Source: Capillidium heterosporum
Lineage: Eukaryota > Entomophthoromycota > Entomophthoromycetes > Entomophthorales > Capillidiaceae
DNA: 64,000 nt
Assembly: GCA_016630905.1 (NCBI GenBank)
Contig: WBMQ01000008.1
Span: 682,001-746,000 of the forward strand
Direction: 5' to 3'
Made by a program: the position numbers and the translations under genes. This document shows positions 7,292 through 9,629 of this stretch, in pieces. The number at the start of each line of letters is the position of its first letter. The stretch's first letter is position 1. The notes beneath the pieces are model-generated. The model did no database searches and had not been told where the DNA came from. It was given only the letters and a program-made list of their open reading frames with translations.

Positions 7292-9629
7292 TTATTCTTT
7301 AAAGGGTTGAGAGTTTGGCTCCGCATTCTCGACAACCATTTCATCAAGCTCATGATCAGTGATGTCATCGGGATCGTTGTCGAAATCCAGGTAACGGTCA
7401 TCAAACGTGGTGGGATCCAACTCCACCTCTTCCACCGGTTTGAACCGGTAAGTCAAGCTACGTTGATACAGTTTGTACAATCCGAACATAGCAGCTATTG
7501 AAACTAATATCAAAATCCTACCAGCAGCATAAATTTAGTAATCTTATCATTTAAAGAGTTAATGTATGCCTTACATTATAGTACTAGAGTGACTTTCCCT
7601 ATCCTCGGATGGAATTGCAGTTTCGATCTGGGCTGGGCTTTTGATATTGACTTTGGATTGGAACCCTTTCCCAAATTCCACCTCGAAAGGATTAGCTACC
7701 TTACTTGAATCTAAGAACCACCGTAGCATCTTCGAGGTGACAATCGGTTGGTCGTAGGATGCCATGTGGGAAGCTTGTCCGACCTTGACGAAGGTCAAAT
7801 TGTCGCGGGCTTTGGCTTCAATCAACTCATCCAGATCTTTGAACTCGTTATCCAAGAACCCAGTCTTTCCATTCCACTCCAAAGTTTCCAATGAAGCGGT
7901 CAGCCCTAAGTAGTTCACCATGATGTCCTTGGTCTCCGCTGATTTGAATTAATTAAGTGTAAGAGGTAAGGAAAGACTTACACAAATATCAAGACCTTGA
8001 TCTGCTTCAAAAGCTGGGGAATCAAATAAATACTGGGTGTTATCAGACTAGAATCTAGGGCGTTGTACACTGTGGATGTACACTCGTACCATCCATCCTT
8101 ACTGATCTCGGTGTTGAAAGCTTTGGCAACCTCTGGATCCTTTTCAATTATTATTAGCATCATCATCAAAATAACAAACCTTACCGCCAGATAGCTTCGG
8201 AAGTTGTTGACGTTGGGAGGCCAACCCATTCCACAGTCGGGGTACTTGTCCCTCAACCTTACATCGTATAAATTAATGCAGGTGCCTTTCCCTTTGCTGG
8301 TGATGTTTCCTCTACGCCGGCATTGTATTAGTAATTGGAAGGGATTAGTACGATGAACTTACGGAAAAGGTTGGAAAGTGAGCTCAGTCAATGTCTGCAT
8401 GAACTTTTCACAAATCGGTGTGGTTGCCGTAGTTATGTTGTGCAGCGAGTTGAGGCAGGGCTGCCCTTCATCGCTATACTTATTCTATCGGTCAAATTAG
8501 AGGGTAAGTATTGTATTTGTATTAAAAATAGTACCAGATTCTCCTCTGACAATATTTGAGTCTTCTCGAGGAAAGGAATCAACGAGGCGTACTGATTATA
8601 AAAGAAATAAGAGCTGATTAATAATAGAATAAAGCTGGATTTACCTGGTTCTTGGGATCCATCCACCCATTTCCAACAGCTATTCCCTTCAAATTAGCTT
8701 TGAACTACTTTCTCGTTAAAATTTTGAAATGAAGGTATGAAAAAATTACCGAACTTTTCTCCAAGATTTTGGTGGCAAAGTTGGGGATCCATATACCAGC
8801 GAAACTTTCTCCTGCCAGGTAGAACTAAAAAGCAAAAATGAAATTCCTTACTTAATTAAATAGGCTACCTCGTAGTCCTTATATTTTTCAAAGACGGCCA
8901 AAAATTTATCCAAAACTTTGAGGAAAGTATCCCCAGCCTACCCATAAAGTTTCAAAAATAAGGCAAAAGAAAAGCAGTACTTCATTGACATTCCTAGCAA
9001 ACTTATCACGTGAGCCTTTACTGTATCCGGTGCCTAAAGGCTGGTCAATAGCCAACACGTCACTGTACCTGTACCACCCCTCCTCCATAAGCTCTAAGGT
9101 GTAGTTGGTGTTGGGTGCTGATGCGGTTATATTAAATATTCCCTTTTCCAATATAGGTCCATCCATGCTAATTTAAATACCATTGTTATTGTAACCATCA
9201 GGTAAAATTTAATTACCTTGTGCTATATAGTTTTCAAAATAAAAGGACCAAAGAAATAATTAGATTTACTCTATATAAATAAATGCATTTTACCAGCCCG
9301 GACCTAAAAAATATAAGCAACTCAAAATATTTAAAATATATTACCTCCGTTCAACCAAATTAACTATAGCCCCATAAAGATAAGTTGAGAATTTCAAAAT
9401 TGACTAAATAAAACAAACTTACCAACCTTTTACCACCTTGCACCTTTTCATACTGTGTCAAATAGAAGAAGAAGCTTTCTTCCTCATTTATTTTCAAGTC
9501 CCCCGAGTAATGCTTAAATTCCTTGTCCTTCAACTCCAACTTGGGCAACCCTTTTATTTCATAATCTACAAATTCTTATGTTTAATCGTGGTATAGGCTA
9601 TAACTAAATTTACGAGAGGGTTGAATCAT
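7292..9629 (-). CDS. KEX1: Kex1-like serine carboxypeptidase (S10), microexon-rich
   Basis: Golgi-type carboxypeptidase expected to trim C-terminal Lys/Arg after Kex2-like cleavage. Seen: oxyanion block [15 protein letters not shown], FIDQP-like LAIDQPLGTGYS, nucleophile motif GESFAG, KGIAVGNGWMDP, ...DIMVNYLG, and the His region GQASHMASYDQP. A membrane helix (ILILVSIAAMFGLYKLY) and an acidic cytosolic tail follow, as in Kex1. Exons (minus): ~9556-9423, 9363-9345, 9303-9294, 9222-9217, 9167-8981, 8937-8869, 8824-8750, 8704-8645, 8591-8535, 8484-8363, 8311-8185, 8139-~7987, ~7935-7575, 7517-7292. Three consecutive exons are 19, 10 and 6 nt. The 5' end is uncertain: a tiny first exon (9629-9614) would give no signal peptide. 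Near 7930-7990 the frame joins only if a non-obvious splice is used, or there is one extra base next to the GDxD motif. Confidence 0.85.

Follow-up and report, generated by a model that had tools for sequence, protein, structure and literature searches.

A predicted Kex1-like serine carboxypeptidase gene of family S10, located on the minus strand of the 64,000-nt window that we analyzed from contig WBMQ01000008.1 of Capillidium heterosporum, has four short introns that leave three consecutive microexons of 19, 10, and 6 nt within its putative oxyanion-hole motif. The arrangement is confirmed in the sequence. We consider highly probable the explanation that the three microexons are constitutively included, with introns that would be recognized by intron definition and may have been gained separately.

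The first homology-supported coding exon of the hand-built model (9423..9565, minus strand) ends with QGGKRL, and the spliced alignments of the homologues P0001, P0002, and P0203 to the gene begin at positions 9566–9563. A phase-0 intron of 59 nt (9364..9422, GTAAGT..TAG) separates this exon from microexon 1 (9345..9363, 19 nt, TTAATTTGGTTGAACGGAG), which codes for L-I-W-L-N-G and starts a further Gly codon with its last base. Following an intron of 41 nt (9304..9344, GTAATA..TAG), microexon 2 (9294..9303, 10 nt, GTCCGGGCTG) supplies the rest of this Gly codon, Pro-Gly, and two bases of a Cys codon. An intron of 71 nt (9223..9293, GTAAAA..TAG) then precedes microexon 3 (9217..9222, 6 nt, CACAAG), which contributes the third base of the Cys codon, a Thr codon, and two bases of a Ser codon, and an intron of 49 nt (9168..9216, GTAATT..TAG) leads to an exon of 187 nt (8981..9167), placed by both the hand model and spliced alignment. 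In other words, 35 coding bases lie between the four short introns, within the motif, and each of the three exons is internal, no longer than 30 nt, and flanked on both sides by GT-AG introns, which is how a microexon is defined here. The coordinates and borders are exactly those proposed in the sequence-only reading, and its claim that the 6-nt exon supplies Thr-Ser agrees with the joined reading frame.

Downstream on the minus strand, the model continues with exons 8937–8869, 8824–8750 (which encodes the active-site sequence GESFAG), 8704–8645, 8591–8535, 8484–8363, 8311–8185, and 8139–7982, separated by introns of 44–53 nt; within 7982..8937, the spliced aligner and the hand model agree on the exons but place the borders at 8311, 8185, and 7982 differently. 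An exon of 364 nt (7575..7938, KDIMVNYLG...) contains the His region (GQASHMASYDQP), and the last exon (7292..7517) encodes a hydrophobic, membrane-like segment and an acidic tail, both judged by eye. In total, homology supports 14 exons and 13 GT-AG introns of 41–71 nt. An ATG at about position 9629, which can be joined in frame by eye through a 48-nt GT-AG interval, was considered as the 5′ end and set aside, as it yields no signal peptide; inspection by eye of the sequence upstream of the gene found no signal-peptide exon.

The joined first 346 residues matched PF00450 with 231.6 bits, compared with a curated cut-off of 21.9, and the nearest relative of solved structure was KEX1 (1ac5, 4.5e-52), followed by the lysosomal protective protein (5.2e-31). 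The Kex1-like identity proposed from the letters alone was thus borne out, and the gene product is a predicted Kex1-like S10 serine carboxypeptidase. The protein carries GESFAG and a motif of the form WLNGGPGC[ST]S, in which we take the Ser of GESxAG to be catalytic and WLNGGPGC[ST]S to be the oxyanion motif. It also contains KDIMVN and ASHMASYDQP, presumably the catalytic-Asp and catalytic-His regions, respectively. The homologue P0203 shares 38% identity with the gene product over 94% of the query and includes a Thr-Ser matching the residues of the 6-nt exon. P0203 is a 607-aa protein whose frame runs uninterrupted on contigs no longer than 2001 bases, while the gene is intron-rich here, suggesting a spliced transcript; this protein of a relative therefore probably derives from spliced RNA. 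The variant GGPGCTS occurred in 6 of the 147 S10 proteins fetched. The annotated "Cell death protease" of Entomophthora muscae (P0240) lacks everything that precedes approximately position 8925 of the Kex1-like gene, including the motif. The expectation that gene finders usually miss such runs is consistent with this model and with the plant and fungal literature; the truncation is compatible with loss of the 5′ portion by a gene finder, or with other causes. Searching the genome with PF00450 revealed two further S10 loci, presumably CPY-like and CPVL-like by motif, with sequences that differ from that of the Kex1-like gene. In one of them (L008), the motif lies within one exon, and in the other (L009), an intron occurs near the start of the motif at a different position, according to a low-scoring alignment.

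The assembled gene contains a one-base frame change that the sequence-only reading had not mentioned. It lies within approximately 7938–7925 (minus strand), between VGD and KDIMVN and hence just ahead of the putative catalytic-Asp region, in a stretch across which the aligned relatives are continuous. A splice choice was rejected as its source, since the only in-frame alternative found (donor 7983, acceptor 7934) scored below all control sites. Together with the signal peptide that was not found upstream by eye, the frame change raises the reading that the gene is a decaying pseudogene, in which the microexons would be relics without productive splicing. We regard this reading as improbable. 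The exons ahead of the lesion remain open and conserved, as do approximately 196 codons beyond it; these stretches encode GESFAG, the His region, the hydrophobic segment, and the acidic tail, and no second lesion was seen. With both sides open, the frame change could stem from an error of assembly, from a polymorphic allele, or from a lesion so recent that the gene would be a young pseudogene.

The splice sites around the microexons were scored against 81 control introns; the median length of control introns was 42–43 nt. The donors of the introns beginning at 9422, 9344, 9293, and 9216 fell at the 45th, 58th, 24th, and 98th percentiles, respectively, and the acceptors of the same introns (9422–9364, 9344–9304, 9293–9223, and 9216–9168) at the 3rd, 96th, 61st, and 53rd. 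The site strength of the four introns is therefore ordinary for the genome, except for the weak acceptor before the 19-nt exon, which counts against our preferred explanation. These scores also bear on the reading that the 6-nt exon is a regulated cassette, an on/off switch in the manner of the Trichoderma Xlr2 microexon, with skipping producing a protein whose active-site loop lacks Thr-Ser. Being a multiple of three, unlike the 19- and 10-nt exons, the 6-nt exon can be skipped without loss of the frame, and the protein still scores 218.8 bits against PF00450 (compared with 231.6 bits when it is included). Furthermore, a functional microexon that depends on glucose is reported in Trichoderma (PMC11121469). 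However, the donor of the 6-nt exon is the strongest of the gene and its acceptor is average, the relative P0203 includes Thr-Ser, and skipping would remove 126 nt at once, more than the longest of the 81 control introns (119 nt, with an aligner limit of 130). We regard regulated skipping as less probable still than the pseudogene reading. Constitutive inclusion of all three microexons in the mRNA, as would be predicted from the sequence, is the expected state, because skipping of the 19- or 10-nt exon shifts the frame and loss of the 6-nt exon removes the active-site Thr-Ser.

We enumerated GT-AG splice paths between the two long flanking exons, allowing at most four introns, each 35–150 nt long, and scored them with a matrix built from 33 distinct S10 motifs. 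Among 4686 paths, 49 were open into the downstream exon. The best two paths scored 51.5 bits, both contained all three microexons, and their sole difference was the upstream donor (9422 or 9404); the next-best path scored 15.8 bits, 36 bits lower, and the best path limited to three or fewer introns scored 13.5 bits. Only the two paths holding all three microexons yielded the motif, as the sequence-only reading had claimed. The donor at 9404 scored below all 81 control donors, so that 9422 is preferred. When the sequence was shuffled with dinucleotides preserved, the top score was 25.1, and the native score was reached in none of the 500 shuffles. A different splice pattern, or a motif produced by chance from many paths, is thus highly implausible: the donor at 9404 does give the motif with a 6-residue insertion ahead of it, but that site scores lower than every control donor, the path retains the same three microexons, and both the gap to the next path and the shuffles argue against chance.

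Spliced alignment with a protein-to-DNA aligner written for this analysis recovered the identical three microexons with each of four homologues (P0001, P0002, P0004, and P0203). Shuffling the region reduced the alignment score from 239 to at most 192, and none of 100 shuffled versions produced a call of three microexons. In 77 of the 100, however, the aligner called one or more spurious small exons, indicating that the aligner alone is weak evidence. A search of the genome (29.5 Mb, 44 contigs) with the 255-nt cluster DNA, limited for very common words, gave no second match. Two further ideas were rejected on this basis: a contiguous copy of the motif elsewhere, as the cluster DNA is single copy and the two other S10 loci differ in sequence, and a burst of introns from a repeated element, within the same limits of the search.

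For comparison, small exons were counted in a control set of 47 genes, comprising 19 phosphatase, tubulin, and actin genes, 20 Ras-superfamily genes, and 8 chaperonin genes. Internal exons of 30 nt or less made up 9 of 172 and were spread over 4 of the 47 genes; each of the nine was inspected base by base. None were found among the 111 internal exons of the accepted phosphatase, tubulin, actin, and chaperonin genes, compared with 9 of 61 in the Ras-superfamily genes. In the phosphatase, tubulin, and actin group, none of the 64 internal exons was under 57 nt, although uniform intron placement predicts 11.5 of 30 nt or less, indicating that small exons are depleted in these genes. In the Ras group, the nine small exons observed did not exceed the 14.5 given by uniform placement. 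These counts put a figure on the rarity claimed for such runs; microexons occur elsewhere in the genome, including at least one further run of three. Microexons are uncommon in the genome yet not unique to the Kex1-like gene. When 13 introns were placed uniformly in a coding sequence of 1623 nt, three exons in a row, none longer than 19 nt, arose in 2.1% of trials; together with the absence of an excess in the Ras genes, this indicates that no special cause is needed for the run.

These counts refer to loci above score thresholds (800, 300, or 500, depending on the family) that were chosen after the scores were seen; 7 of 26 phosphatase, tubulin, and actin loci, 1 of 9 chaperonin loci, and 0 of 20 Ras loci were dropped before counting. 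In three of the dropped loci (L011, L031, and L034), poor alignments contained internal exons no longer than 30 nt, which were taken as unreliable. Exons at alignment ends were excluded, though some were short, and gaps of 7–14 residues occurred in 4 of 19 control genes. The family searches reach loci through their long exons first, so that the sample is biased against microexon genes. As a separate observation on the tubulin family, three matches fell within 10 kb of one contig (G000 C23:103805–113666), and two of them are beta-like genes, each with a first aligned exon of 185 nt and one intron.

The small exons of the Ras superfamily included a 23-nt exon placed by spliced alignment in a Rab7-like gene (L044) and, in a Rab2-like gene (L049, positions on the reverse complement of the locus), an 11-nt exon (915–925) for the P-loop residues GVGK and another of 28 nt (1110–1137). 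Two Ras-like genes each contained a run of 18, 22, and 2 nt; the 2-nt exon lies at 978–979 in L046 (plus strand, G000 contig C4) and at 1122–1123 in L053 (reverse complement, G000 contig C12), and in both genes this exon, AG, finishes a Glu codon before TYDPT. We take the motifs at the microexon sites to be the Kex1 oxyanion loop, the Ras effector region, and the Rab P-loop. The products of L046 and L053 are identical in 102 of 169 aligned columns, and alignment of their four introns gave scores no higher than those of shuffled sequences. The shared lengths of 18, 22, and 2 nt despite unlike introns indicate that runs of microexons have stayed in register for a long time in this genome.

The Kex1-like gene contains 8.0 introns per kb, compared with 4.8 per kb in the controls and a reported 1.58 per kb in Conidiobolus coronatus (PMC8476143). 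The genome is Entomophthorales-like, judging by a sphingolipid C9-methyltransferase-like ORF in the window (55542–56936): its best named relatives come from Massospora (71%) and Entomophthora (68%), behind a top match at 73%. Introns beside small exons were longer than the others (n = 20 vs 215, median 54.5 vs 42 nt, rank test p = 1.4e-4); the corresponding values were p = 0.0014 for the controls alone, p = 0.03 within genes that have small exons, and p = 0.49 within the Kex1-like gene alone, and the two Ras-like paralogues in this comparison are non-independent. Long and short flanking introns alternate in three runs, namely 59, 41, 71, and 49 nt in the Kex1-like gene and 52, 41, 64, 40 and 106, 62, 72, 45 nt in the Ras-like pair, which could reflect ordered removal. 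A bolder reading, to which we would grant no more than a modest chance, is that ultra-short exons, some of only 2 nt, occur in this lineage in many long-lived runs at the catalytic motifs of conserved proteins, with a fixed order of splicing and longer flanking introns that give the machinery room. If so, the lineage would be a natural system for studying how an intron-defining spliceosome deals with exons too small for two-sided binding.

Our preferred explanation for the Kex1-like gene is as follows. Each of the short introns (41–71 nt) would be recognized as its own unit, so that exon length would hardly matter; with a median intron of 42–43 nt in the genome, intron-spanning recognition is the natural model and would put little constraint on the length of exons. 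The introns around the microexons would most likely be spliced out one by one. They may have entered the oxyanion motif by separate gains, with purifying selection keeping them in register afterwards.

Each element of this arrangement, taken separately, is already covered by known cases. In Fusarium, CYP621A P450 genes contain a 1-nt exon backed by RNA reads and 20 orthologues (PMC12940212); as in the Kex1-like gene, an ultra-small fungal exon lies in a conserved enzyme motif and is needed for both frame and motif, and gene models miss the Fusarium exon. That case concerns one exon, whereas the Kex1-like gene has a predicted run of three. The P450 genes of Phanerochaete chrysosporium, another fungus, have microexons of 2–10 aa, frequent small introns of 45–55 bp, and exons down to 6 bp (PMC1184071), the same minimum as here; they represent a spread across a basidiomycete P450 family, and the portion of that report available describes no run of three in one motif. 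The 9-nt microexon of plant invertase genes, which is often unannotated, encodes part of the beta-fructosidase motif (PMC8831610) and, like the exons described here, writes the core of an enzyme signature; it is one microexon rather than three, and plant clusters have been traced over land plants by gene structure. Human RPS24 has three consecutive microexons of 3, 18, and 22 bp (PMC11162997), which similarly stand in a row between ordinary exons; that run, in a gene for a ribosomal protein, is alternatively spliced and lies close to the 3′ end, whereas the Kex1-like run is predicted to be constitutive and lies in an active site. Among rice micro-exon genes, the serine carboxypeptidase domain PF00450 appears in the domain table (PMC6600660), placing the same peptidase family among small-exon genes, with rice micro-exons of up to 51 nt. 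Schistosome micro-exon genes likewise have very short exons (3–81 bp), but their introns reach 5 kbp and they encode secreted parasite proteins (PMC10526429), in contrast to the conserved enzyme and 41–71-nt introns of the Kex1-like gene. Among the literature matches listed, there was no report of microexons in Entomophthorales, which does not imply that none exists, nor of a three-microexon run inside one S10 catalytic motif or a 2-nt exon in a Ras gene; judged by title, none of the matches was a study of chytrid microexons.

The Kex1-like gene thus offers a well-bounded, testable case in which three consecutive microexons appear to write an enzyme active-site loop in an early-diverging fungus, and the same genome adds a 2-nt exon held in register in two Ras-like paralogues. 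Correct splicing of tiny exons would matter in this gene and in a few others among those checked, and standard gene prediction may overlook such exons. The case is also a warning: in genomes of this kind, automated annotation may cut conserved enzymes short at their catalytic motifs. A 2026 review names the spliceosomal recognition of extremely short microexons as an open direction (PMC13149111), and a genome with median introns of 42–43 nt provides a simple setting for its study.

The convergent neighbor of the Kex1-like gene, arranged tail to tail with it, is an RPN11 gene on the plus strand. When this gene was aligned, with splicing allowed, to an RPN11 chain of solved structure, a microexon of 13 nt was placed in it (6091..6103, plus strand, ATGCTAAAACATG, M-L-K-H). 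The RPN11/Kex1 pair is flanked by two similar ORFs of 139 residues in opposite orientation (3512–3931, plus strand; 10074–10493, minus strand), which have a hydrophobic start and many cysteines and resemble small secreted proteins.
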